From contig OW568882.1 of assembly GCA_938743325.2 (NCBI GenBank), positions 62,001-126,000 on the forward strand: a DNA stretch of 64,000 nucleotides. Reading direction: 5' to 3'. Below, in pieces: positions 14,730 to 45,306 of this stretch. The position numbers and the translations under genes were made by a program. The notes beneath the pieces were generated by a model. The model was not told the DNA's origin. It searched no databases and saw nothing but the letters and a program-made list of their open reading frames with translations. This stretch comes from Pycnococcus provasolii (Eukaryota > Chlorophyta > Pseudoscourfieldiophyceae > Pseudoscourfieldiales > Pycnococcaceae). Numbering within the stretch: the stretch's first letter is position 1; the number at the start of each line of letters is the position of its first letter.

Positions 14730-17700
14730 ATGCGCCTTCAGTCATCTTCCCCTTCTCAGGCTTGCACAAGTGCACATGTCGGAGCTGCAAGGGCATCATC
14801 ATGCTCTGCACTGCTCTCTGCACCTCGAAGTCGTCGGGGCGCAAGCTCGAGAGAGTCGTTCGTCTTGACGGCGACGTCCATGCCTCTCTCGCAGTCAGCG
14901 CAGGAGGATTTGACGTCGGCGTCGTCAACTTCAACTTCTTCTCCTTCTGTTTCGTTCGCATCTGAACGTGAGGCTGAAATTGCTCGACGCATCGTCGACG
15001 CGTGGAAACAGGCGGCTTCGGGAACGTCTTCAAAAGTTCTCCAAGGCAAGAACCATTCGCAACCGGCTTCCCAGGCCTCCTTGCTCGCTCCGCTCGAGGT
15101 GGTGGCGGAAACACTCGAGGAGGATAACCCGCAGGGAAAGTCGTGGAGAGAGGGGAACTGGAAAAGCACTACCGCCACAGCCGTGCCAGTCACCGCCGCA
15201 CTCAAGCCAGCCATCGTCGTGCCGCCGCCGAGAACAGTCAACGCACACCCAGCCACGGTCTCTGCAGCTGTAGCGGGAGTCGGGGCAGTCATCGCCGCGG
15301 GCGTGCCAATGGCACGCAGGTGGCTCAGAAAATTCAAATACGCGGAAGAGAACCTTAAATTAGTCAACGAGCACTGGAGCGTGGAACTCGACGGCGCACG
15401 CGCGGAGGCGGATCGACTGCACAAGCAACTCAGAGTCGAAAAAACCAAGGCACGCGAACAGAACATGATGATGGAAAAACTCAGCCAGGAAATCATACAG
15501 GTGTCGCGCGAGTCGGATGCGATGCGCACGCAACTCGCACGCAAGAAGGACCGCGAGAAGAAGACGGCCGATTCGCTCGCGGACGCGCGCAGGCGGCTCG
15601 CGGAGCTGTCGAGCTCCACCCAGGAGGAACGCGCAAGCTTCAAAAAGCAAAGCGAGTCGTGGGCGAGCACGGAGGCGGTCATGAACGAGCGCATCGAAAC
15701 GCTGCGACGGCGCGCGGAGGTGCTCGAGCAGGATGTCGAGCGCACGCAGAGCCTGGCGACGCAGTACGAGCAGCAGTACGTCGACCTCGCGCAGACGGGC
15801 ACGGAGGATCGCACGGTGATCGTGGACGAGCTGCGTCGAAGCGAGGAGCTGCTCTTGGAGCGCCTGAATGCCATACAGGTGGAATACAAGGAGAAGTGCC
15901 GCGTGGTGGAGAATCTGCAGAAGGAGCTGGACGGCGCCAAGTCTCAGACATTGGAACGATCGGATAGCATGAATGCGCGTATTGCGGACCTCGAGCAGCA
16001 GCGAAAGGCTGCCGAGGAAACGAAGACAGAGCAGCAGCGCGAAATTCAGATGCTGCGAAACGAGATGGAGATGAACCGAAGCCTTCTGAAGACGTCGGCA
16101 TCTGATATCGAAAACAGCCAGGAGAATATTGCTGAACTGTCTGAACTCGTGGACGGCGCTAAGAATGAGTTGGCAAAGGCACGAGTGGAGCTCGACGAGA
16201 TGATGCAGAGACGCGATGAGGCGGAGCAGCAGGTGAAAGCGAGCTATGCCATGATTCAACATGAAAAGGAAAAGGCGATGGCTGCTGTGCAGGCTACCGT
16301 CGACGAGCTGAGCGCCGAGCACGAGGGTACGGTTCAGCAGGTTGCTACGTTGAAGCAGGAGCTCGCGGTGAAGGGTACGCAGCTGTTTGACACTCAGAGA
16401 GAGAAACAGGAGACGCTCGAGGTGTTCCGCCGCTACGAGAAGGAGAAGCGCGAGGAACTTGCGGATGCAAAATCAAATCTGGATGAAATGATGCAGAGTC
16501 GCGTGGAGATGGAGCAACACGTCAAGCAAATGAAGAAGCGCGGCAAGATCATGCAGCAGGAGAAGGATCGGGCGGTGGCAGCACTGCAGGCGCGTGTCAA
16601 CCAGCTGAGCGTTCAGTACGACACCATGTCGAGAAAGGCTGAGAAACTTAAGTCTGAGAAGAAATCGGCACTCGAGGTGTTCCGCCGCTACGAGCAGGCT
16701 AAGCACGCCGAGCTCGCTTCGGCACGTTCCGAGCTGAAGGATATGATGCTGAAGCGTGATCTCGCTGAGGAGGAAGTGAAGGCGCGCAGTGCCCTGATGC
16801 ACCGTGAGAAGGAGCAGGCTGTGGCTGCACTGCAGTCTCGCATCGATAGCCTAAGCAAGGAGCATACTGGTATGAGGAACGAAATCACGACGCTCAAGGG
16901 CGAGCTGATGGCGAAGGGCACGCAGATCGAGGCGATGAAGGAGGAAAAGCGATCGGCGCTCGAGTTTTCCAAGCGCGTGGTCGAAGCCAAGCACGTGGAG
17001 CTCGTCGCGAAGAATGATAGCGTGTCCAAGGAAGCGGCGACGCTGAAGGGCGAGCTCGCCGACAAGAATGTGCAGCTCGCCAAACTGCAGAATGAGAAGC
17101 GCGTTGCGATCGAACACTCGAAGCGCGTCGCGCAGGAGAAGCACGTGGAGCTCGCGACGGCAAAGCAGGAGCTCGAGCAAATGGTGCAGAAGCGTCGTGA
17201 GGCGGAAGAGGACATGGAGGCACGCAGTGCGATGACGCAGAAGGAAAAGGAGCGAGCAGTGGCGGCATTGCAAGCTCGTGTCGACGAGCTGAGCAAGAAG
17301 CATGATGGCAAGCTCGAGCAGGTTGAGTCGCTCAAGCGCGACCTCGCTGGCAAGGGCGCGGAGATCGCGGATGTGCGCGAGGAGAAGCGAGCAGCGCTCG
17401 AGTTCTCGAACCGCGTCGCACGCGAGAGCCGCGAGGAAATCGGCCGTCTGCATGACGAGATGGAAGTCGCGCAACAACAGCTCGACGAGCTGAGCAAGAA
17501 GCATGATGGCAAGCTCGAGCAGGTTGAGTCGCTCAAGCGCGACCTCGCTGGCAAGGGCGCGGAGATCGCGGATGTGCGCGAGGAGAAGCGAGCGGCGCTC
17601 GAGTTCTCGAACCGCGTCGCACGCGAGAGTCGCGAGGAAATCGGCCGTCTGCATGACGAGATGGAAGTCGCGCAACGTCAGCTGCAGGAGTCTGTGCTCG

Positions 17701-19952
17701 ACGCGAGGGATACACATGAGCAGATGGAAGATCTCTCGTCGCTCGCTCGTCTTGCTCAGGAGGAACTCGCGGCTGCGCATGCAACCATGGAAAGCACGAT
17801 TGATATGCACAGCGAGACGGAGGAGCAAATGCAAGCCAAGGTTGCAGATATGCGCGAGGAGAAGCGAGCGGCGCTCGAGTTCTCGAATCGCGTCGCACGC
17901 GAGAGCCGCGAGGAAATCGGCGGTCTGCATGACGAGATGGAAGTCGCGCAACAACAGCTCGACGAGCTGAGCAAGAAGCATGACGGCAAGCTCGAGCAGG
18001 TTGAGTCGCTCAAGCGCGACCTCGCTGGCAAGGGCGCGGAGATCGCGGATGTGCGCGAGGAGAAGCGAGCGGCGCTCGAGTTCTCGAACCGCGTCGCACG
18101 CGAGAGCCGCGAGGAAATCGGCCGTCTGCATGACGAGATGGAAGTCGCGCAACGTCAGCTGCAGGAGTCTGTGCTCGACGCGAGGGATACACGCGAGAAG
18201 ATGGAAGATCTCTCGTCGCTCGCTCGTCTTGCTCAGGAGGAACTCGCGGCTACGCATGCAACCATGGAAAGCACGATTGATATGCGCAGCGAGACGGAGG
18301 AGCAAATGCAAGCCAAGGTTGCAGATATGCGCGAGGAGAAGCGAGCGGCGCTCGAGTTCTCGAATCGCGTCGCACGCGAGAGCCGCGAGGAAATCGGCCG
18401 TCTGCATGACGAGATGGAAGTCGCGCAACGTCAGCTGCAGGAGTCTGTGCTCGACGCGATGGATACACACGAGAAGATGGAAGATCTCTCGTCGCTCGCT
18501 CGTCTTGCTCAGGAGGAACTCGCGGCTACGCATGCAACCATGGAAAGCACGATTGATATGCGCAGCGAGACGGAGGAGCAAATGCAAGCCAAGGTTGCAG
18601 ATATGCGCGAGGAGAAGCGAGCGGCGCTCGAGTTCTCGAATCGCGTCGCACGCGAGGAAACTGGCCGTCTGCATGACGAGATGGAAGTCGCGCAACGTCA
18701 ACTGCAGGAGTCTGTGCTCGACGCGAGGGATACACACGAGCAGATGGAAGATCTCTCGTCGCTCGCTCGTCTTGCTCAGGAGGAACTCGTGGCTGCGCGT
18801 ACAAACTTGGAAAGCACGATTGAGATGCGCCGCGAGGCGGAGGAGCGAATGAAAGCTGAGTATGCAGTGATCCAGCGAGAAAAAGAGGAGGAGGTGGCAA
18901 CGATGCAAGCTCGCATTGATGAGCTCGGCAGAGAACACGATGCCATGAACTATGAAGCGGAGAAGCTGAAGTACGAGGTTGTTGATCAGGGTGCTCATTT
19001 CGCTGAGGCGCGCCAGGAGAAGCGATTGGCTCTGGAATACGCGGGCCGAATCGTGCTGGAGAAGCAAGCAGAGATTGCTGATGCACGTGCAAATCTGCAG
19101 CAAATCGTCAAGGAGCGAGATGAGGTGGAGGGGCAAATGCGTCGAGAGAAGGATGAGTTAGTGGCTGCTATGCAGGCGCGCGTCGAAACGTTGAGTGCGG
19201 AACATGACGGCATGATACAGGAGGTTTCCTCTCTGAAGCGCGAACTTGAGGCGAAGGGTGCGCAGATTACGACTGCGCAGGAGGAGAAGCGATTGGCCCT
19301 TGAGGACATACGTCGCGTTCGAGAGGAGACGCGTTTGGAGCTGGCATCTGCGCAATCGGAGCTCGAGATGCAAAGGAAGAAGGAGGATGCAGAGGCGAGG
19401 GCGATTGCATTTGCACAAGAGAAGGCTCGAGCAGAGCTAAAGGTGATCCGGCAGCGTGAGGCGGAGGCTCGTGCGAAAGCTTTCTCGCAGGCAAAGGAAG
19501 CAGTCTCTGCTGTGGCGAAAGCGCGGAAAGAGTCGATGGACCAGGCAAGGGTGCAGGCAGAACGACAGTCGGATGTGGCAAGGGTGCAGGCACAACGACA
19601 GGCAGATGCGGATGCTCGTGCGAAAGCGTTTGCCCAAGAAAAGGCGATAGGTTATCGCAATAGCTTGCGGCGGAAGGAGGCGGAGGAGAGGGCGAAAGCG
19701 TTTGCACAAGAGAAGGCGGCGCATCTGAATGGCGGAGCCGCGATGTCTGGATCGGAGAAGCTGAGGGCGTTGGAGAAGGACGCGGAGGAGAAGGCTCGTC
19801 AGGAGCTCCGTTTGATTCGGCAGAGAGAGATGGAGAAGCGTGCGCGTGCATGGATGGAGGCGAAAGCAACGATGAACAACTCTAAGACTGACGACGCCGA
19901 CTCTGAGACAGAAGTTGGTGGTGAGCATTCCTCAACTTTCGCTCGCCACTAA
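14730..19952 (+). CDS. Plastid-type membrane-anchored giant coiled-coil protein
   Basis: 1740 residues from ATG 14730. Residues 1-60 are rich in Ser, Ala and Arg and nearly free of acidic residues, like a plastid transit peptide. A short block shared with the next gene follows (PLEVVAETLEEDNPQG, then WREGNWKST; about 121-148), then one predicted transmembrane span (about 176-199), then ~1500 residues of charged heptad coiled coil. Part of the coil consists of near-identical repeats (see 17289..18760). The C-terminal 150 residues are E/K/R/A-rich helix. There is no catalytic domain. By layout it is a structural tether or scaffold anchored in a plastid membrane, comparable in form to MFP1- or SAGA-type coiled-coil proteins; homology to either is not shown. 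Paralogous to the gene at 21143. Confidence 0.8.
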   Translation: MRLQSSSPSQACTSAHVGAARASSCSALLSAPRSRRGASSRESFVLTATSMPLSQSAQEDLTSASSTSTSSPSVSFASEREAEIARRIVDAWKQAASGTSSKVLQGKNHSQPASQASLLAPLEVVAETLEEDNPQGKSWREGNWKSTTATAVPVTAALKPAIVVPPPRTVNAHPATVSAAVAGVGAVIAAGVPMARRWLRKFKYAEENLKLVNEHWSVELDGARAEADRLHKQLRVEKTKAREQNMMMEKLSQEIIQVSRESDAMRTQLARKKDREKKTADSLADARRRLAELSSSTQEERASFKKQSESWASTEAVMNERIETLRRRAEVLEQDVERTQSLATQYEQQYVDLAQTGTEDRTVIVDELRRSEELLLERLNAIQVEYKEKCRVVENLQKELDGAKSQTLERSDSMNARIADLEQQRKAAEETKTEQQREIQMLRNEMEMNRSLLKTSASDIENSQENIAELSELVDGAKNELAKARVELDEMMQRRDEAEQQVKASYAMIQHEKEKAMAAVQATVDELSAEHEGTVQQVATLKQELAVKGTQLFDTQREKQETLEVFRRYEKEKREELADAKSNLDEMMQSRVEMEQHVKQMKKRGKIMQQEKDRAVAALQARVNQLSVQYDTMSRKAEKLKSEKKSALEVFRRYEQAKHAELASARSELKDMMLKRDLAEEEVKARSALMHREKEQAVAALQSRIDSLSKEHTGMRNEITTLKGELMAKGTQIEAMKEEKRSALEFSKRVVEAKHVELVAKNDSVSKEAATLKGELADKNVQLAKLQNEKRVAIEHSKRVAQEKHVELATAKQELEQMVQKRREAEEDMEARSAMTQKEKERAVAALQARVDELSKKHDGKLEQVESLKRDLAGKGAEIADVREEKRAALEFSNRVARESREEIGRLHDEMEVAQQQLDELSKKHDGKLEQVESLKRDLAGKGAEIADVREEKRAALEFSNRVARESREEIGRLHDEMEVAQRQLQESVLDARDTHEQMEDLSSLARLAQEELAAAHATMESTIDMHSETEEQMQAKVADMREEKRAALEFSNRVARESREEIGGLHDEMEVAQQQLDELSKKHDGKLEQVESLKRDLAGKGAEIADVREEKRAALEFSNRVARESREEIGRLHDEMEVAQRQLQESVLDARDTREKMEDLSSLARLAQEELAATHATMESTIDMRSETEEQMQAKVADMREEKRAALEFSNRVARESREEIGRLHDEMEVAQRQLQESVLDAMDTHEKMEDLSSLARLAQEELAATHATMESTIDMRSETEEQMQAKVADMREEKRAALEFSNRVAREETGRLHDEMEVAQRQLQESVLDARDTHEQMEDLSSLARLAQEELVAARTNLESTIEMRREAEERMKAEYAVIQREKEEEVATMQARIDELGREHDAMNYEAEKLKYEVVDQGAHFAEARQEKRLALEYAGRIVLEKQAEIADARANLQQIVKERDEVEGQMRREKDELVAAMQARVETLSAEHDGMIQEVSSLKRELEAKGAQITTAQEEKRLALEDIRRVREETRLELASAQSELEMQRKKEDAEARAIAFAQEKARAELKVIRQREAEARAKAFSQAKEAVSAVAKARKESMDQARVQAERQSDVARVQAQRQADADARAKAFAQEKAIGYRNSLRRKEAEERAKAFAQEKAAHLNGGAAMSGSEKLRALEKDAEEKARQELRLIRQREMEKRARAWMEAKATMNNSKTDDADSETEVGGEHSSTFARH
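15563..15907 (+). repeat. Tract nearly identical to 22864..23208 (paralogue copy A)
   Basis: About 345 bp of the first coiled-coil gene are almost identical in DNA to a segment of the second, with about two differences over the first ~320 bp and a few more at the right edge. Flanking DNA of the two genes is far more diverged. Confidence 0.9.
17289..18760 (+). repeat. Higher-order in-frame tandem repeats in the coiled coil
   Basis: Two module types recur with very few changes. One is a ~201-bp unit (starts near 17289 and 17490, again near 17970) encoding ELSKKHDGKLEQVESLKRD. The other is a ~270-bp unit (starts near 17690, 18160, 18430 and 18697) encoding LQESVLDARDTHEQMEDLSS. All are multiples of three. 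The low divergence points to recent unequal exchange. Confidence 0.9.
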
Positions 19953-26328: not shown

Positions 26329-28842
26329 CTACGGCTTCTTCAAGGTGCACTTGTTGTTTTCGCACGACGCTGTGATTTTTTGGTTTTTGTTGAAGGCGTC
26401 GGCACCGAAGAACATTTCCATCATGTCCGTCACCTGTGACGTATCCCACCCGCTGATGTCTTGATTGAAGGACGTGGCATCATAGAACATGGCACTCATG
26501 TCCGTCACCTTGGACGTATCCCACCCGCTGATGTCTTGATTGAAGGACGTGGCACCATCGAACATATATCTCATGTCCGTCACCTTGGACGTATCCCACC
26601 CGCTGATGTCTTGATTGAAGTCCGTGGCACCGCTGAACATTTCTACCATGTTGGTCACCTTGGACGTATCCCACCCGCTGATGTCTTGATCGAAGGAGAA
26701 GGCTGAACTGAACATGGCACTCATGTCCGTCACCTGCGACGTATCCCACCCGCTGATGTCTTGATTGAAGGACGTGGCTGAACTGAACATGCGTTTCATG
26801 TTTGTCACCTTGGACGTGTCCCATCCGTTGATATTCTGCTTGAAGGCAGAGGCACCACTGAACATATAATTCATGTCCGTCACCTCTGCCGTATTCCACT
26901 TGCTGATGTCTTGATTGAAGGCCTCGGCATCATAGAACATGCTGTTCATGGTCGTCACCTTGGACGTATCCCACCCGCTGATGTCTTGATTGAAGGAACC
27001 GGCTGAACTGAACATGGCACTCATGTCCGTCACCTGCGACGTATCCCATTTGCTGATATCCAGGTTGAAGTCTACGGCACCGCTGAACATTTCTACCATG
27101 TTGGTCACCTTGGACGTATCCCACCCGCTGATGTCTTGATTGAAGGAAAAGGCAAAATCGAACATGCTCTTCATGCTCGTCACCTTGGACGTATCCCACC
27201 CGCTGATGTCTTGATTGAAGGAACCGGCTGAACTGAACATGGCACTCATGTCCGTCACCTCTGCCGTATTCCACTTGCTGATGTCTTGATTGAAGGATCT
27301 GGCATCATAGAACATATGATTCATGTCCGTCACCTTGGACGTATCCCACCCGCTGATGTCTTCATTGAAGAATTCGACGGCAGGATTCTTGTCACGGCTG
27401 AACAGGTGACTCATGTCAGTCACCTTGGACGTATCCCACTCAGAGATCTCACCAAACAGAATAGTGGCAAGTTTTTGATTCCAAATCCACGCTCCAACAC
27501 GTTCTTTCAATTCATCATTATCTGCCACGACCAACTTAGATTGTGCAGCCTCGAGACAATCCTCGTTGGCGGGGAGGCCCTGCTTGAGCTTGGAAATCTC
27601 ATCATCCTTGGCGGCGAGGTCCTCCTCGAGCTTTTTGATTTTTTCATCCTGATTCTCAGTAGGGCAATCTGGGCCAGGCGCCTCCTCAGAATCAGTTTCA
27701 TCTGTCGACGTGGATGTTGACCCGCCCGTCGACGCCGTTTCTCCAGAAATACTTTTATCACAGTAGCACCAGTCGTTTTCGGTGAGGCACCAGTTTCCTT
27801 TGGGGTCGCTGTCGCAGTTGGTACATCCACTCTGTTTTTCAACGCCGCAAAACTGCGTGTCCGTCCACTCAGCCAGGCATGCCGTTAACACTGAAGCGGG
27901 GCCATTGAAATTGCACTTGCCAGTGTTGCCACTGTCGAGAAGGCGCCGGCGGCGAGACTTCTCAGCCACGACGGTGTCAGTCATCACGATCGTTCCATCC
28001 TCCTTGGTCACATTCAGCGACGTTGCCGTAACGTTGATGACATCGCCACGCGCCGAGTAAAACGCGACGGCGTTTGCCTTGCCTGGCGCGCCACCGTGTG
28101 TCTCCGCGCCGGTGATGGTGTAGAACAGGGAGGAGCCGTCCGGCTTATCGAGCGTCAGCGAGTCGATCGCGCGGAGAGCCGACGCTGACTTCTTCACCGC
28201 GTTGTAGATGGAATCCGTCTTCGTCACCTTTGCTGTCGCCGAAGGCTTGCTGGACCCCTTCGCGTATGTGATGCCAGTCTTGCTGTCCGTCTTCGTCTCC
28301 TTGCTATTCTCGACGACCACCGCGACGAGGCCGACGATGACGCCCACGAGGGCGCACAGGATGAGCAAGAGAACACCGCTGAAGGTCGTGAGTCGCTTGG
28401 CTGTCTTCTTGGAACCTTTGTAAAGCTCCGCACCACGAGCAAGCTCCATGGGCGCGACCGTTCCGTCACCGTCGACGTCGAAGACCTTGAGCGTTGGTTG
28501 GATCTCCTTGGGCAGCGTCTTGATGGCGATAGAGCCCTCCTTGTTCGCCTTCTTCAACTCCACGTATGTGATAGCCATCTCCGTGAGCTCACCCATCTCG
28601 AGTTTCCCGTTTCCCTCCTCGTCGATCTCACGCAAGAAAGGCTGCACGTTCTCCGGGAACGCCTTGATGGAGATGCCGTCGTCGTTCGCAATGGGCAGCT
28701 CGTCCGGGTCAATGATTCCGTTTCCGTTCTTGTCAAACTTCGCCAACATGGTACGTAGAAGCGCCGGGCACTCGTCGAGTTTGATCCCGTGTAGCATTTC
28801 GCGCACACTGCCAAGCGGGGCGGCGGTACCGCCGGTAACCAT
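26329..28842 (-). CDS. EF-hand, single-pass membrane protein with DUF285 (BspA-like) repeats
   Basis: 837 residues from ATG 28842. Three canonical EF-hand loops lie at residues 37-48 ([12 protein letters not shown]), 74-85 ([12 protein letters not shown]) and 122-133 ([12 protein letters not shown]). One membrane span follows (about 152-177). The rest has N-glycosylation sequons, a Cys-rich patch, a short coiled coil, then 14 tandem 25-residue units of the type [15 protein letters not shown] + SFNQDI, which is the DUF285 (mycoplasma lipoprotein/BspA) repeat. Topology is probably type II: EF-hands in the cytosol, repeats outside. This would let a surface protein respond to internal calcium. 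DUF285 repeats are common in some algae and protists; their ligands are unknown. The longer upstream frame runs through a CA microsatellite and is not used. Confidence 0.85.
26380..27460 (-). repeat. 14-unit in-frame 75-bp tandem array (DUF285)
   Basis: Units of 75 bp encode W(D/N)TS(K/Q)VT(D/N)M..MF...SFNQDIS. Several units are nearly identical in DNA, so the array probably changes in copy number by unequal exchange. Confidence 0.9.
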
Positions 28843-29699
28843 ATCTATATGGTGCGTGTATATTCTTCTTAAGGCAGGAAACACACACACACACACACAC
28901 ACGTACAGTATGCACTCGCACACTCGAGAGGGACGAGCGAAGAATGACGAGGCGTCGACGAGGGCCAGGCGAGGGCGAGGCGAGGGCAAGGCGAGCTGAC
29001 GAGGCGAGCTGACGAGGCGAGGGCAAGAAGGCCCTCGAGGGCCAGCTAGGCGAGGTTGCTAACCTTATTCGCCCGTTGGTTGCCCAAGGGGGGGACCCAG
29101 CACAGCAGGCCAATGAGGCCACCACCACACCACGTGGTCACCGCTTTAAAAAGGCCGGCCGGGTCCCCCAAACCACTATAACACAACAAGGGTACACGGT
29201 CTGACTCGGAGTCTCGGCTTTAAACAGTCGGCTTGGTGTCGCTCGCTCAAAGTCCGAAGCCCGCTTCGCCTTAGAACTGTGGTTGGGGCCCCACGAGAAA
29301 CAAGCATCAGGGGGGGCCGCCTTTCTCGAACAAAATCATGCCGAATCCCCACAAAGATCCGCCTTACCAAATATCCTCGGGTTTGTTCGGGGGTTACTGG
29401 GCCCCAGTTGGGAATCCCTCACAAATAGTCCTATACACGAGTTCTAATATTCCGTTTTTTGGCAAACCCCGAAAACCTCCTTTTTTTTACGACCATTCTG
29501 GTCCAGCCAGGGCTACCCAGTACGGTACGGTCCAGTACGGTACGGTGTCACCGTACCGAACTTTAACCGTACTTCTCCATATATATAAGAAAGTACGGTT
29601 AAAGTACGGTCCGACCATTTAAGTCGGCGCCGACCATTCTGGTCGGGATTCGGAGTTGGATTCGGGGTTTGGTTCGGGTGAAACCCCCAACTGTTACTG
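28843..29699. other. Intergenic region with small repeats
   Basis: 857 bp. It contains a (CA)n run (28880-28902), tandem GCGAGCTGACGAG-type repeats (28970-29030) and a cluster of inverted repeats at 29491-29644. The first part should hold the promoter of the EF-hand gene. No coding signal. Confidence 0.6.
29491..29644. repeat. Short palindrome-bounded inverted-repeat cluster
   Basis: GACCATTCTGGTC, itself almost palindromic, stands at 29491-29503 and again at 29632-29644. Between them are AGTACGGT-type repeats and a perfect 14-bp inverted repeat (CTTTAACCGTACTT at 29561-29574 with its complement at 29591-29604) around an AT-rich 16-base loop. It may be a tiny MITE. Confidence 0.6.
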
Positions 29700-32180: not shown

Positions 32181-32189
32181 AAAAAAAAA
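32181..32189 (-). terminator. RNA polymerase III T9 terminator
   Basis: Nine T residues on the minus strand, four bases after the end of the 5' half of the permuted tRNA gene. Placing the terminator after the 5' half, not the 3' half, supports transcription in permuted order. Confidence 0.75.
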
Positions 32190-32193
32190 TTAA

Positions 32194-32286
32194 TAGGAGG
32201 GAAACGCTCTATCCACTGAGCTAGACGGACTGGTGAACAAACACCGATTGTATCCGACGTGGGGTTCGAACCCACGACCGTTTCCT
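32194..32286 (-). tRNA. Permuted tRNA-Arg(CCU): 3' half precedes 5' half
   Basis: Reading the minus strand, the 3' half (32286 to 32251, 36 nt, positions 38-73) comes first, then a 20-nt spacer (32250 to 32231), then the 5' half (32230 to 32194, 37 nt, positions 1-37). Joined in biological order they give a 73-nt cloverleaf: acceptor stem with one G-U and one U-U pair, T8-A9, D arm GCTC-AGTGGATA-GAGC, anticodon stem TTTCC/GGAAA, loop CTCCTAA with anticodon CCU, 5-nt variable loop, T arm GTGGG-TTCGAAC-CCCAC, discriminator A. The break falls at 37/38, the canonical tRNA intron site. CCA is not encoded. Sequences outside the two ends (AAAAT and ATTTT) can pair, as a bulge-helix-bulge needs. Ordinary tRNA scanners would miss it. 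Confidence 0.88.
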
Positions 32287-32330
32287 CGCGAGATTTTGAA
32301 CCGGTATCCCCAGAATTCCATGGTGACACT

Positions 32331-32340
32331 GTATATAAAT
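32331..32340 (-). promoter_or_regulatory. TATA-like element upstream of the permuted tRNA
   Basis: ATTTATATAC on the minus strand, about 45 bp before the 3' half. Upstream TATA elements occur at algal and plant Pol III genes. It could also serve the divergent DSN1-like gene. Confidence 0.4.
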
Positions 32341-40074: not shown

Positions 40075-43000
40075 ATGAACATTGCAAACTTGCTCGCCAA
40101 GAAGTCGGGCGGCGGCGGCGGCGCCGCAGAAGTGTCGGAGGACATGTACGCGGAGTCCACCTTGACGCCACTGCAGAAGTCGTGGCGCGTTAAGGTGCTC
40201 CGCGGCCTCAAGCGCAAGGTGCAGGAGAGACAGGAGCTGACGTCCGTGGACGTGGGCACAGGTGCGAAGATGAACGGCTCGGCATTCGGAATCCTCAGCG
40301 ACGAGAACAGATTCCGAATCACATTCTTCAAATTGACTTACAGCCAGCCGTTCGAGTACTTCCTCTTGGCGGTCATCTTCCTGCACCTGTGCGTGCTGAG
40401 CCTTCGCAGCGGCGACGAAGATCGCGCGGTGCGAGGCGTGGAGACGGACTCGCTGCGGCTTGCGGACATTGCGTTCAATGCATTCTACACGATAGAGATG
40501 GTGATGCGGTGCATCGCGCTGGGCGTGGGGCCGGAGTCGAAGGACACGTACCTGCGCGGCAGCGGCGCGGGGTACAACCGCCTCGACTTCGTGGTGGTGG
40601 TGCTCGGCTGGTTCTTCATCATCGCGAAGGAGCCGATCCGCCTCGCCTCATTTCGCATCTTCCGCTCGCTGCTCGCACTCAAGTCGTTCCGATTCATTTC
40701 CGCCATCATCGCCATCACCGACGCGCTCTCCGCGTCGCTCGAGGTTCTCGTCGACGTCTTCGCGTTCAGCGCCGTCTGCCTCGCATTCTACGGACTCATG
40801 GGCATGAACCTCTTCGCCGCCGTGCTGCAGCGACGATGCGTGCTTCCCGTGGGTCCGGTGAACGCTACGTACGCCAACCTCATGCAGCCGTACCAGTCTT
40901 TGGCAGAACTGCCAACGCGGTATGGCAGCAACGTGAACGCCACGTTTGCGTTCTCCTCACCCGAGAACACGTGCGGCAGCGACATGGTCACCTCGTACGC
41001 CACGGCTACGCCAGGGCACGCAACGTTCGGTGACGGGTACTGGTGGTGGGGTCTTGCGACGAACCAGAGCTACGACTACGAGAGACAGACGAACACCGCG
41101 ACGGGCTCCTTTTCAAGTCTGGAGGCTGCGGACAAGGGATTCACGTGTCCCTCGAAGCATCTCGTGGACATGGGCCTACCGCCGATGGTGTGCAGCCGAT
41201 ACGTAGGAAACATCGCGTACGAGGCAAACTCGTTCGACGATTTTCCTCATGCTCTCATCACCATGTTCCAGGTAATCACGCTCGAGGGATGGAACATCGT
41301 CGCGCAGGCGACGATTGACGCCGAGTACAAGATCTCCGTGTGGTACTACATCACGCTGATCATTCTTGGCACGTACTTTCTCGTCAGCGTGTTTGTGGCG
41401 GCGGTTAGCGGCGTATTCCTTCGCCTCCGTCGTGAGCACCAGGCGCTCATCACGATGAAGAACAAGCGAGAGGACCTCAAGGCGAAGAGTGGCTTGCAGA
41501 GCGCGCTTGCGCTGATCAATGCTCTCGAGGGCAAGGGGGGGAACAGTGCTTCGGGAGCACGAGGCAGCGTTGCGTCTGGTGGCATCGCGCAGGTGATCCA
41601 GCTTGCACTGGCAAAACGAAAGGCACGACGCATCATGGAAAAGTCGGGCGACCCGGAGGCATCAGTTACAGGCGTAAATAGCGAGGGTGGCGCCGAAGAA
41701 GAGGTGGCTGAGCCTGAGCCCAAGCCGATGCTGGCCATAGCCGAAAAGGCTGTTACCTGGAAGCATTTCGGACACGCTTCTGGCTTTTTCGTGGTTCTGA
41801 ACACACTTGTGCTGTGCGGATACTCGTACGAGAACGAGAAGTCGACGAACGACTCGATCGACGGGTTCGCCTACCTGATGATTGCGGTTTTCGTGATCGA
41901 GACGTTTCTTCGCACGCTCGCATCCCCGACGCTGCTTGGGCACATTCGCCAGAGCCATGAGGCGGTAGACATTGCAGTGGTGATCCTCGCCGTGATTGGC
42001 GTGTACGGCGGCATGTTCCCGAACATCACGCCACTTCGCATGCTCAGGTGGTTCCGTCCACGAAAAGGGGTGAAGCAGAGCGAGCAGACGGTGCTTGAGA
42101 AGGTTCTAGCATCACTTGACGTCATGGTGACGCTGTTCCTCTTCTTGTGCCTAACAACGTTCGCGTTCGCGGTCATGGGCATGCAGCTACTTGGCGGTCG
42201 CTTCACTACATTCCAAGAGGGAAATCCACGTGACAACTTCGACACGCTTCCTGAGGCGTTCATGACGATGTTCTTCGTGACCACCGGAGAACGCTGGGTG
42301 GACATCATGTGGAACAGCATTCGTGTCGGAGGGTGGACAGGCGGAATCGCGCCCTTCTTCTTCGCCGTGTTCTTCGTGCTGACCAACTACGTCACGCTTA
42401 ACCTCATTATCGCCGTCATTCTCGAGAACATGGAGCTTCCCGATTACGTGAAGCGCATGCTGCAGCGCGAAGAGATCGAGAAGAGAGCTGTGAATCGCAG
42501 GGCGAGCACGGTGGCCATTGCCACGCGCGCATCGACGTTGAAGAACATGGTTGCCTTCGTGCTAGGCGGCTTCCGGAAGCCGGGCGCGGGTGCGAAATCC
42601 GTAGCGCCTGAGCCGCCTGAAATTGAAAGCCCGGAAGGATCGCCAGAGGTGCCGGTGCGCCCGAAGAGCCATGGCCGCGTCAAGATGACGCAAAGCATGC
42701 TTGAGGGCACAGATGCCATGGAGCGCGCATCCACGCCGACGCAGCAGGAGATGGAAGAGCGGCGCAGATCCTCGCGTGTTGCCCGCAAGAGCCTTGCACC
42801 GGGATCAGTGGATGCCATGTCGATCATGACATCAACTGCTGCACCATCCGGTGGCGGATTTCGACGATTCCGTCGCGCGAGCCTTTCGATGTCGAGCGGC
42901 CTTTTGGTGGACGTGTATGGTACAGGCGGTGCAATGGGGAACAAGCCGAATGCGGACGAGGTGATGGCTGTCGCCGCGGCAGCCTCGGGGGTTGGTAAGG

Positions 43001-45306
43001 GTTCCGGTGCGGATATCGAGAAGGGCATGGCTTACGAGAGCCCGGTGAAGCCGTCCGCGCGCCAACGCGCGTCGGGTGATGATTCAGACGTCCTGCCGGC
43101 GTGGATTCGCAACGATGTGTCGTTGCACATGTTCCCGCCCGGCCATCCAGTGCGCATGCAGTGCCTGGAGATCCTGTCGAGCAAGATCTACAGGTACAGC
43201 TCGATCGTTGCCATCGCGCTCAGCTGCTTCACGGTGATGATGATGGAGCCCGTTGGCGTGAAGTCGGACTACGATACAATGATTCTGTCCGTAAATGCCG
43301 CCGTGATGGTGTACTTCCTTTTCGACTTTCTCATCAACGTGATTGCGCATGGCTTCATCTTCACGTTGGAGCCTTACATCTTGAACGGGTGGAACACTAT
43401 GGACTTGGTCCTGCTGATCATCGACGTGCTGGCGCTTTTCAAGTGGGCCAAGTACTACGAGTACGGCATTCGCGCCGCCCTGTCGCTGCGTCCGCTGCGC
43501 CTGCTGAATCGATTCGAGAGCATGCGAGAGCTGTTCGGCGCAATCATCAAGACGATGCCGAGCATCGTCAGCGTCTTCATGCTCAGCGCGGTCGTCTTCC
43601 TCGCCTTCGACGTGTTCGCCGTGCAGCAGTACTCGGGCAAGTTCTTCAGCTGCAATGATGACTCCGTGAATGGACGGTACGACTGCGTCGGCACGACAAT
43701 CGCCGCCATTGAGGGCGCGCCGTCAGCGTTCGGGATTGCCGTTCCCAAGGTGTGGGATACGCCGTTCCACAACTTCGACGACGCGGGACGAGGCATGCTC
43801 ACTCTCGTGGAGGTGGCCTCTCTCGACGAGTGGGTCGATGTGATGTTCGACGCGATGGACGTGACGAAATTGTACGAGCAGCCGCAGACGAACAACTCGT
43901 GGGGCGGCGCCATCTTTTTCATCCTTTTCGTGGCCATCGGCAGCTTTTTGGTCGTGCGCACCTTCATTGGCGTTTTCATCGACCAGTTTGGATTCATCAG
44001 CGGATCGAAGCTGCTGACGGAGCGGCAGAAGCTTTGGCGTGACATGCGCCGAATCATCGAGACGATGAAGCCTCGTCCTGCACGCCTCCGACCAACCAAC
44101 CCGTTCAAAAGGCTGTGCTACGATATCACAGAGCACCCTCGGTACCCTACGGTGGCACTTGTGGTGATCACGCTCGACTGCGCGCTGCAGATGACGTACA
44201 CCGCCGGCCAGAGCAACAACTGGGCGCAGCTGCTCAGGAGCATGGATGCGCTGTTCACGATCGTATACTTTCTCGAGATCATCGTGCGCTTTTTTGCGTA
44301 CCGGCGATTCCGCCGCTGGGTGAGCTACAACTGGAATCTGTTTGAGGTGGTGATTGCCGTGGGAAGCCTGTTTACCATCTACGCGGAGGAGGGAAGTGGA
44401 AGCCACAGCGCAGGCCGTCCCTTCCGCTTCCTGCGCACGTTCCGCGTGATCCGCTTCGTTCCCGGTCTCAACACGCTGCTCAACACCATCATCATCTCAA
44501 TGCCATCTCTCATTTCGGTTGTCGGCCTTCTCCTGATTGTGATGTTCATCTACGCCGGCGCGGGCACGCAGCTGTTTGCGGACGTGAAGTACGGCGAGAG
44601 CCTCAACAGGCACGCGAACTTCAAGACGTTTAGCAGTAGCGGCAAGCTGCTTTTCCAGGTGATGACGGCGGAGGGATGGCGCGGTTTGATGAATGACGTG
44701 GGAGTCGATTATCCGTACTGCACAGCAACGCCGGAGCTCAACGACTGTGGGTATCCGATGAGCTCGACGTCCTATTTCGTCAGCTTCGTCATCGTGTGCA
44801 CGTACATCTTCACCAACCTTTTCGTGGCGGCAATATTGGACAACATCACATTCGGCCTGCTGAACGAGGCGGCGATCGTGCAACCCAGGGACCTCATGAA
44901 GTTTCAGGAGGTTTGGGAGAGCTTTGACATCAGCGCCACGGGATATCTGAAGATTCACCGTCTCGGTGACTTCATGGAGGGTCTCGGCGCACCACTCGGC
45001 AGAACACGGCCTTTCCCCGTCGGATTCCTGCAGCCCGTTTACTACGAGGCGCACTACATGCACGTTGAGGGCAAGGGTGTCCCATTCACGCCGTTGTGCG
45101 AGACGGTGCTAAATGCTCGCCTCGGCCTCACGGCGCTGACGTATGACGTGCGCAAGCTACGAGAGGCTGAGGTGGAGGAGATATTCGAGTACGGAGCTTC
45201 CGTGGTCATCCAAAAGTTTGCACGCGGCTTTCTCGTGAGAAGTCGCCTTGCCCGGTTGGCGAGTATAAATGCCGCCGCACGTAGTGCTGGCAGCGGCGAG
45301 CTTTGA
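40075..45306 (+). CDS. Four-domain voltage-gated cation channel (CaV/NaV superfamily)
   Basis: 1743 residues from ATG 40075, no introns. Four six-helix repeats begin near residues 95, 560, 1045 and 1365. Each has an S4 helix; repeat IV is most complete (RPFRFLRTFRVIRF). The pore filters read TLEGWN (Glu404), TGERWV (Glu739), SLDEWV (Asp1251) and TAEGWR (Glu1533), an E/E/D/E ring that favours calcium. After the last pore there is a degenerate EF-hand region (about 1605-1640) and an IQ motif (VVIQKFARGFLVRSR, about 1708-1722) for calmodulin. In algae such channels work in flagellar and plasma-membrane calcium signalling. It is not the single-domain BacNaV/EukCat type. Confidence 0.93.
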   Translation: MNIANLLAKKSGGGGGAAEVSEDMYAESTLTPLQKSWRVKVLRGLKRKVQERQELTSVDVGTGAKMNGSAFGILSDENRFRITFFKLTYSQPFEYFLLAVIFLHLCVLSLRSGDEDRAVRGVETDSLRLADIAFNAFYTIEMVMRCIALGVGPESKDTYLRGSGAGYNRLDFVVVVLGWFFIIAKEPIRLASFRIFRSLLALKSFRFISAIIAITDALSASLEVLVDVFAFSAVCLAFYGLMGMNLFAAVLQRRCVLPVGPVNATYANLMQPYQSLAELPTRYGSNVNATFAFSSPENTCGSDMVTSYATATPGHATFGDGYWWWGLATNQSYDYERQTNTATGSFSSLEAADKGFTCPSKHLVDMGLPPMVCSRYVGNIAYEANSFDDFPHALITMFQVITLEGWNIVAQATIDAEYKISVWYYITLIILGTYFLVSVFVAAVSGVFLRLRREHQALITMKNKREDLKAKSGLQSALALINALEGKGGNSASGARGSVASGGIAQVIQLALAKRKARRIMEKSGDPEASVTGVNSEGGAEEEVAEPEPKPMLAIAEKAVTWKHFGHASGFFVVLNTLVLCGYSYENEKSTNDSIDGFAYLMIAVFVIETFLRTLASPTLLGHIRQSHEAVDIAVVILAVIGVYGGMFPNITPLRMLRWFRPRKGVKQSEQTVLEKVLASLDVMVTLFLFLCLTTFAFAVMGMQLLGGRFTTFQEGNPRDNFDTLPEAFMTMFFVTTGERWVDIMWNSIRVGGWTGGIAPFFFAVFFVLTNYVTLNLIIAVILENMELPDYVKRMLQREEIEKRAVNRRASTVAIATRASTLKNMVAFVLGGFRKPGAGAKSVAPEPPEIESPEGSPEVPVRPKSHGRVKMTQSMLEGTDAMERASTPTQQEMEERRRSSRVARKSLAPGSVDAMSIMTSTAAPSGGGFRRFRRASLSMSSGLLVDVYGTGGAMGNKPNADEVMAVAAAASGVGKGSGADIEKGMAYESPVKPSARQRASGDDSDVLPAWIRNDVSLHMFPPGHPVRMQCLEILSSKIYRYSSIVAIALSCFTVMMMEPVGVKSDYDTMILSVNAAVMVYFLFDFLINVIAHGFIFTLEPYILNGWNTMDLVLLIIDVLALFKWAKYYEYGIRAALSLRPLRLLNRFESMRELFGAIIKTMPSIVSVFMLSAVVFLAFDVFAVQQYSGKFFSCNDDSVNGRYDCVGTTIAAIEGAPSAFGIAVPKVWDTPFHNFDDAGRGMLTLVEVASLDEWVDVMFDAMDVTKLYEQPQTNNSWGGAIFFILFVAIGSFLVVRTFIGVFIDQFGFISGSKLLTERQKLWRDMRRIIETMKPRPARLRPTNPFKRLCYDITEHPRYPTVALVVITLDCALQMTYTAGQSNNWAQLLRSMDALFTIVYFLEIIVRFFAYRRFRRWVSYNWNLFEVVIAVGSLFTIYAEEGSGSHSAGRPFRFLRTFRVIRFVPGLNTLLNTIIISMPSLISVVGLLLIVMFIYAGAGTQLFADVKYGESLNRHANFKTFSSSGKLLFQVMTAEGWRGLMNDVGVDYPYCTATPELNDCGYPMSSTSYFVSFVIVCTYIFTNLFVAAILDNITFGLLNEAAIVQPRDLMKFQEVWESFDISATGYLKIHRLGDFMEGLGAPLGRTRPFPVGFLQPVYYEAHYMHVEGKGVPFTPLCETVLNARLGLTALTYDVRKLREAEVEEIFEYGASVVIQKFARGFLVRSRLARLASINAAARSAGSGEL

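Follow-up and report, generated by a model that had tools for sequence, protein, structure and literature searches.

A circularly permuted tRNA-Arg(CCU) gene in the prasinophyte Pycnococcus provasolii, and a mostly permuted readable set of sister genes with apparent spliceosomal introns

The stretch of Pycnococcus provasolii DNA analysed here, 64,000 nucleotides in length and hereafter called the window, carries on its minus strand the two halves of a tRNA-Arg(CCU), with the 3' half lying upstream of the 5' half. Read along that strand, a TATA-like stretch is followed by ACAGTGTCACCATG, GGGGATACCGGTTC, a short leader, nucleotides 38-73 of the tRNA, a spacer, nucleotides 1-37, four further nucleotides and a run of nine Ts, as listed below:

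32333..32340, minus strand: ATTTATAT, a TATA-like stretch directly upstream, recognised by eye
32319..32332, minus strand: ACAGTGTCACCATG, a candidate upstream promoter element with 4 exact places in the genome
32298..32311, minus strand: GGGGATACCGGTTC, an element in the leader region that is genome-wide and not tRNA-specific
32289, minus strand: the G at leader position -3, a possible pairing partner of C32 (32199)
32251..32286, minus strand: 3' half of tRNA-Arg(CCU), nucleotides 38-73, comprising the 39-43 strand, the variable loop (CGGUC), the T arm that holds box B, the 3' acceptor strand and A73
32231..32250, minus strand: spacer of 20 nt between nucleotides 73 and 1, probably removed by RNase P and tRNase Z
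32194..32230, minus strand: 5' half of tRNA-Arg(CCU), nucleotides 1-37, comprising the 5' acceptor strand, the D arm that holds box A, the 27-31 strand and the loop nucleotides CUCCUA, which include the anticodon CCU
32181..32189, minus strand: T9, 4 nt past A37, probably the terminator for RNA polymerase III

When the halves are joined after A37 and before A38 they give a 73-nt sequence that ARAGORN calls tRNA-Arg(cct), with the anticodon loop CUCCUAA and 20 of the 21 stem pairs formed; U6-U67 is the sole mismatch, and G1-U72 is a wobble pair. Inspection by eye adds the consensus features U8, G15-C48, the GG of the D loop, U33 and the UUC of the T loop, and finds no encoded CCA, A73 being followed by CAATC. 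The initial annotation of this DNA had described a minus-strand order of T-arm half, 20-nt spacer, D-arm half and T9, with the B box ahead of the A box, and a 73-nt cloverleaf with a single acceptor-stem mismatch on joining at 37/38. The order is exact (32286-32194, with the T run at 32181-32189), box B does lie upstream of box A in the letters, and the cloverleaf and its one mismatch are as described. In the unjoined window DNA, ARAGORN reports 0 genes and Rfam 0 matches at the gathering score. Covariance scoring, which the annotation had proposed as a check, was carried out with a permuted-order model of nested structure (R2) trained on 12 permuted tRNAs from elsewhere in the genome, with the Arg(CCU) gene left out. 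R2 scores the gene at 68.7 bits (E 1.8e-20) and finds nothing else in the window at E up to 10; an earlier model (R1), whose training included the gene, gave 69.6 bits.

The same-strand position of the 3' half upstream of the 5' half, the 37/38 junction and the complete cloverleaf fit the type II class of permuted tRNA genes, and the 20-nt spacer falls within the 1-74 bp range given for intervening sequences in the available text of a 2014 review (PMC3978253). The window's own Arg(CCU) gene contains no GT-AG intron. The codon AGG is in use, with 25 occurrences among the 4946 codons of four window ORFs. The kinship with permuted-tRNA algae suggested by the annotation agrees with the source of the DNA, P. 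provasolii CCAP190/2 being a prasinophyte of the class Pseudoscourfieldiophyceae, and the assignment of the gene to the permuted, green-algal type (junction 37/38) is supported.

We searched the assembly (32,333,900 bases in 46 contigs, among which contigs of 24,277 bp and 80,243 bp bear mitochondrial- and plastid-type tRNA genes) for sister genes by means of box-B and D-arm motifs followed by a cloverleaf scanner, a procedure whose yield depends on the motifs tried. The readable, incomplete set comprises 30 nuclear tRNA gene types, 26 of them permuted at 37/38 and 4 in ordinary order and interrupted at 37/38. The permuted genes are spread over many chromosomes and divide into 13 intron-free types, 12 intron-bearing types (see below) and one locus on C9 of uncertain identity. 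The intron-free types are Arg(CCT), Ser(TGA), Ser(CGA), Leu(TAG), Leu(CAA), Leu(TAA), Asn(GTT), Gly(TCC), Val(CAC), Val(AAC), Thr(TGT), Lys(TTT) and His(GTG). The four interrupted types in ordinary order are Tyr(GTA), Trp(CCA), Met(CAT) with A1-U72, and Gly(GCC); the reading of Gly(GCC) (locus L079) rests on relaxed donors with two tied solutions, and that of Met(CAT) (L084) on one relaxed donor, GTTCGT. The C9 locus (L060, C9:7832) was considered as Met(CAT) and reaches 66 bits with R2 unspliced, but it has a T-T at 31-39 and T37, and this identity was rejected. By eye, the same locus minus a 32-nt non-GT-AG stretch would read Arg(TCG), and it is counted as one permuted gene of uncertain identity. 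A further locus (L054, C7:455184) shows a well-formed T arm and a T run behind it, but yields no cloverleaf in either order.

A search with the Rfam tRNA family, in which 63 of 587 first-look candidates were scored and from which intron-broken copies could escape, yielded 27 matches. Of these, 24 lie on the organelle contigs; the nuclear remainder consists of Tyr(GTA) and Trp(CCA), the latter in two copies, and all three have a 60-64-nt interruption at 37/38. Genes for Glu, Asp, Pro, Ile and other tRNAs were not found in the motif-based reading, which does not imply their absence, and a D-arm pattern for Glu/Asp-like tRNAs returned no clear tRNA. Two box-B variants showed no excess over the control (GGTTCAAWYCC, 21 against 24; GGTTCRAGYCC, 41 against 108); nevertheless, these variants were the source of Leu(TAA), Cys(GCA) and Lys(TTT). 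ARAGORN assigned the expected isotype to 26 of the 27 mature tRNAs that were joined, leaving His(GTG) unnamed. The tRNA identity rules were applied to nucleotide 73 of these joined tRNAs, and G73 is found in all four Ser, A73 in all three Leu, and U73 in both Gln and Cys. The G3-U70 pair, which is the identity pair of tRNA-Ala, occurs among the 27 in the two Ala tRNAs only, and there it appears after intron removal, one Ala gene having an intron adjoining the acceptor stem and the other an intron inside it.

The breadth of this set bears on the possibility that the Arg(CCU) locus is an assembly artefact or a chance adjacency of two tRNA fragments, such as tRNA-derived repeats. Halves of tRNAs do occur as repeats in many genomes. 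Here, however, the same half order recurs in another 25 tRNA gene types, which are spread over many chromosomes, and the Arg(CCU) halves pair with each other and not merely within themselves. The gene is single copy in the genome DNA search, and the CCAP190/2 assembly is built from long reads with a QV of 58, according to the accessible text of its report (PMC11130579). An origin by artefact or chance is thus scarcely credible.

The pair between nucleotide 32 and leader position -3 is what we take to be the A-I pair read by the eukaryotic tRNA-splicing endonuclease. If, as a premise, the leader and trailer are cut like a 37/38 intron, the partner expected for nucleotide 32 is the nucleotide three places ahead of nucleotide 38. 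Such a pair is Watson-Crick in 21 of the 24 permuted genes tested (15 C-G and 6 T-A, covarying, with C32-G in Arg(CCU)); other leader positions within -1 to -8 can pair with nucleotide 32 in 2 to 10 of the 24 with G-T counted, and shuffled partners gave 21 or more pairs in 2 of 100,000 trials. The pair fails in Leu(CAA), Thr(TGT) and Val(CAC); inspection by eye shows it missing from the permuted Met(CAT) and the C9 locus as well, hence 21 of 26 overall. The strict central helix of a bulge-helix-bulge (BHB) motif does not form at Arg(CCU), where 32:-3 is the one pair made out of its 4 (by eye); the junction types described in the available review text include relaxed and 'no H' BHB forms (PMC3978253). 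The catalytic domain of the tRNA endonuclease (PF01974) is found in two ORFs. The covarying pair points to the tRNA-splicing endonuclease as the enzyme that would act at 37/38.

These results also bear on whether the Arg(CCU) gene is a dead relic, that is, a rearranged pseudogene in a genome where AGG is read by another tRNA. The U6-U67 mismatch in the acceptor stem would suit such decay, and an Arg(UCU) gene, permuted and with one intron, exists on C37; its product could read AGG by wobble. A relic would nonetheless have kept all but one of its 21 stem pairs, a T loop and a D loop that are both intact, the T9 terminator and the C32:G-3 pair, and indispensable sisters such as Phe(GAA) share the same build. 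The initial annotation had held that an ordinary Arg(CCU) gene elsewhere would speak against function; a search of the genome DNA with the 93-nt gene, from which an intron-broken copy could escape, returned the gene itself alone. A scan of viral contigs with the 5' half gave no match. Decay to a pseudogene is accordingly judged very unlikely. We infer that the gene is functional, because no other copy was found, the endonuclease pair covaries across the sister genes and the T9 terminator is present; on this sequence evidence the locus is, with high probability, a working circularly permuted tRNA gene.

The elements upstream of the gene differ in their genomic distribution. With up to one mismatch, GGGGATACCGGTTC occurs at 230 places in the genome, against 4 for the backward pattern; it is found upstream of several permuted tRNA genes, often 12-40 nt ahead, and is, judged by the first 100 of the 230 places, a strong genome-wide element (C1-C44) and not a tRNA signal as such. 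Three of the four exact matches of ACAGTGTCACCATG lie at tRNA genes, namely Arg(CCU) and the two Trp(CCA) copies, but once a mismatch is permitted the element is no commoner than its control allows for (26 places against 21). A looser TGTCAC-like form is present within 90 nt upstream of 14 of 24 permuted genes, and a T run of at least 7 follows the 5' half in all 24 permuted genes tested, both being counts without a control. The Arg(CCU) gene itself has both a TATA-like element upstream and a T run downstream. The upstream element in the form ACARTGTCACYATG was likewise tried as a tRNA promoter and rejected: at one mismatch it occurs at 26 places against 21 for the control, with tRNA genes only among its exact matches.

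Twelve of the permuted sister genes form a cloverleaf only once one to five GT-AG introns are removed, 31 introns of 69-81 nt in all. The numbers per gene are Cys(GCA) 1, Phe(GAA) 4, Ala(AGC) 5, Ala(CGC) 3, Arg(ACG) 4, Lys(CTT) 3, Ser(GCT) 2, Ser(AGA) 1, Arg(TCT) 1, Gln(CTG) 2, Gln(TTG) 3 and Met(CAT) 2. With its four introns removed Phe(GAA) forms 21 of 21 pairs, and the shortest exons measure 3 nt in Arg(ACG) and 6 nt in Ala(AGC). The solver used here imposed GT-AG borders and allowed introns of 45-115 nt, two later ones being sought within 62-92 nt. Its best-scoring reading differed from the adopted one in 5 of the 12 genes. In four of these, Ala(CGC), Lys(CTT), Ala(AGC) and Arg(ACG), that reading had fewer introns and a different anticodon; in the fifth, Ser(GCT), it placed the anticodon elsewhere. 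The adopted readings were chosen by judgement, on a purine at 37, known loops, a fitting identity and, for Ala, G3-U70. A length of 75 nt for the Ser(AGA) intron, derived from an open-frame rule unsuited to a tRNA gene, was discarded for the 69 nt of the cloverleaf reading.

Permuted cloverleaves of at least 19 pairs were obtained for 20 of 115 real loci, some of these being overlapping records or gene copies, but for none of the 115 reversed loci; 300 dinucleotide shuffles, made from five of the intron-bearing loci, likewise gave 0. An intron family of about 73 nt is common to the tRNA genes Ala(CGC), Ser(AGA) and Arg(TCT) and to protein genes, and its 25-nt motif occurs at 68 genome places (up to 3 mismatches) against 0 for the backward pattern. 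All 16 non-tRNA copies studied (including those on C24, L158; C37, L162; and C4, L163) start with GTAAG, and splicing them out, with the acceptor chosen among the first three AGs, extends the open frame in 15; the sole copy whose frame was not lengthened is L154. A Pfam domain runs over the splice join in all five fragments scanned, of ten translated: dynein twice, RNA polymerase Rpb2, exostosin GT47 and a FAD-binding domain. The 73-nt intron of Ala(CGC) has an exact counterpart in the intron that interrupts a dynein heavy chain ORF at the C24 locus, where the match of the spliced frame to the AAA_9 ATP-binding motor region of dynein spans the join.

The GT-AG stretches might alternatively be introns of the endonuclease (BHB) type, or chance matches. 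Cyanidioschyzon tRNAs do have BHB introns at odd places, as the accessible review text describes (PMC3978253), and the borders here are partly imposed, GT-AG having been sought by the solver. On the other side, the lengths cluster at 69-81 nt within the wider ranges allowed, the shuffled and reversed controls are empty, and the intron family, with no backward matches, includes the perfect dynein copy; we consider a non-spliceosomal nature of these stretches unlikely. Since the Ala(CGC) intron is identical over 73 nt to the dynein-gene intron, spliceosomal introns of the introner kind appear to have invaded the permuted tRNA genes.

Several further features of this DNA were observed in passing. 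Many nuclear tRNA genes form inverted pairs 3-8 kb apart, some near chromosome ends (C9, C7, C26). The second copy was read at the pairs C9:7832/14282, C25:286897/289842, C3:1025215/1032128 and C23:393796/400365, and was deduced from motif matches for C7:989303-994860, C15:143929/152197, C26:15093/22930 and C34:484526/490765. Four elongator tRNAs, Val(CAC), Val(AAC), Ala(AGC) and Ala(CGC) (L102, L103 and the joined C7 and C16 loci), have the T loop AUCGA with A54, a nucleotide typical of initiator tRNA. Elsewhere in the window there are an 886-aa ORF with DUF285 repeats and EF hands (26329-28989, minus strand), a 1743-aa ORF with four ion-transport domains (40075-45306, plus strand), and a 1740-aa open frame without a Pfam match and with strong AT and GC skew (14730-19952, plus strand).

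We propose that maturation of the Arg(CCU) transcript would proceed as follows. RNA polymerase III would start upstream at an external promoter, which is suggested because the A and B boxes stand in the wrong order, and would stop at the T run. The linear transcript would fold so that both its ends meet in the anticodon loop, where the tRNA-splicing endonuclease might remove leader and trailer, at 38 and 37, and a ligase would circularise the RNA. RNase P and tRNase Z could then excise the 20-nt spacer, after which CCA would be added. For sister genes such as Ala(AGC), Phe(GAA) and Lys(CTT), an earlier step would be needed, in which the spliceosome takes introner-type GT-AG introns out of the same transcript. 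This path is likely to be the one outlined for Cyanidioschyzon and Ostreococcus in the available review text, with circle formation by endonuclease and ligase and opening by RNase P and tRNase Z (PMC3978253).

The same text counts 34 permuted tRNA genes, of which the sole Arg(CCT) is in C. merolae, the green algal ones being mostly joined at 37/38 and none of them an Arg(CCT) (PMC3978253). The permuted genes of prasinophytes resemble those of P. provasolii in their nuclear location, 37/38 junction and downstream T run, and their tabulated spacers of 11-64 bp are similar in length to the one described here. The tabulated species, however, have 3 to 6 permuted genes each, with one intron-bearing case and no Arg(CCT) (PMC3978253), whereas in P. 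provasolii 26 of the 30 types read are permuted and 12 have GT-AG introns. C. merolae shares with P. provasolii the permutation, an external TATA-like promoter, the T run, a permuted Arg(CCT) and a missing ordinary set, tRNAscan-SE seeing 30 of its 43 tRNA genes (PMC3978253). It differs in that 11 of the 43 genes are permuted, with variable junctions, BHB-type introns and few spliceosomal introns genome-wide, and its Arg(CCT) is joined at 59/60 and has a BHB intron at 14/15 (PMC3978253). Auxenochlorella is likewise a green alga with an incomplete tRNAscan-SE set in which permuted genes were then found; the accessible part of that report gives no number of permuted genes and mentions no GT-AG tRNA introns (PMC12633428). 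The introners of Micromonas are similarly near-identical families of spliceosomal introns throughout a prasinophyte genome, but the word tRNA does not occur in the available text on them (PMC9860276), while the P. provasolii family lies in both tRNA and protein genes. In the literature searched, as far as its text was accessible and with subscription journals mostly outside it, there is no report of permuted tRNA genes in Pycnococcus or of spliceosomal introns in tRNA genes. What is new here is the Arg(CCU) gene as a further member of the permuted class and, together with its sister genes, a variant of it.

Where described before, permuted tRNA genes are a minority, 11 of 43 in C. merolae and 3 to 6 per prasinophyte in the review text available (PMC3978253). 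A mostly permuted readable set makes the persistence of permutation testable, because the loss of ordinary tRNA genes seems near complete in P. provasolii; almost the entire nuclear tRNA repertoire escapes standard tRNA finders. Spliceosomal introns in tRNA genes would tie tRNA supply to mRNA splicing. If this is true, P. provasolii would offer a natural case of the spliceosome acting on short, T-run-ended transcripts with exons of a few nucleotides, and protein synthesis in this alga would hinge directly on splicing of the mRNA type acting on transcripts made by RNA polymerase III.
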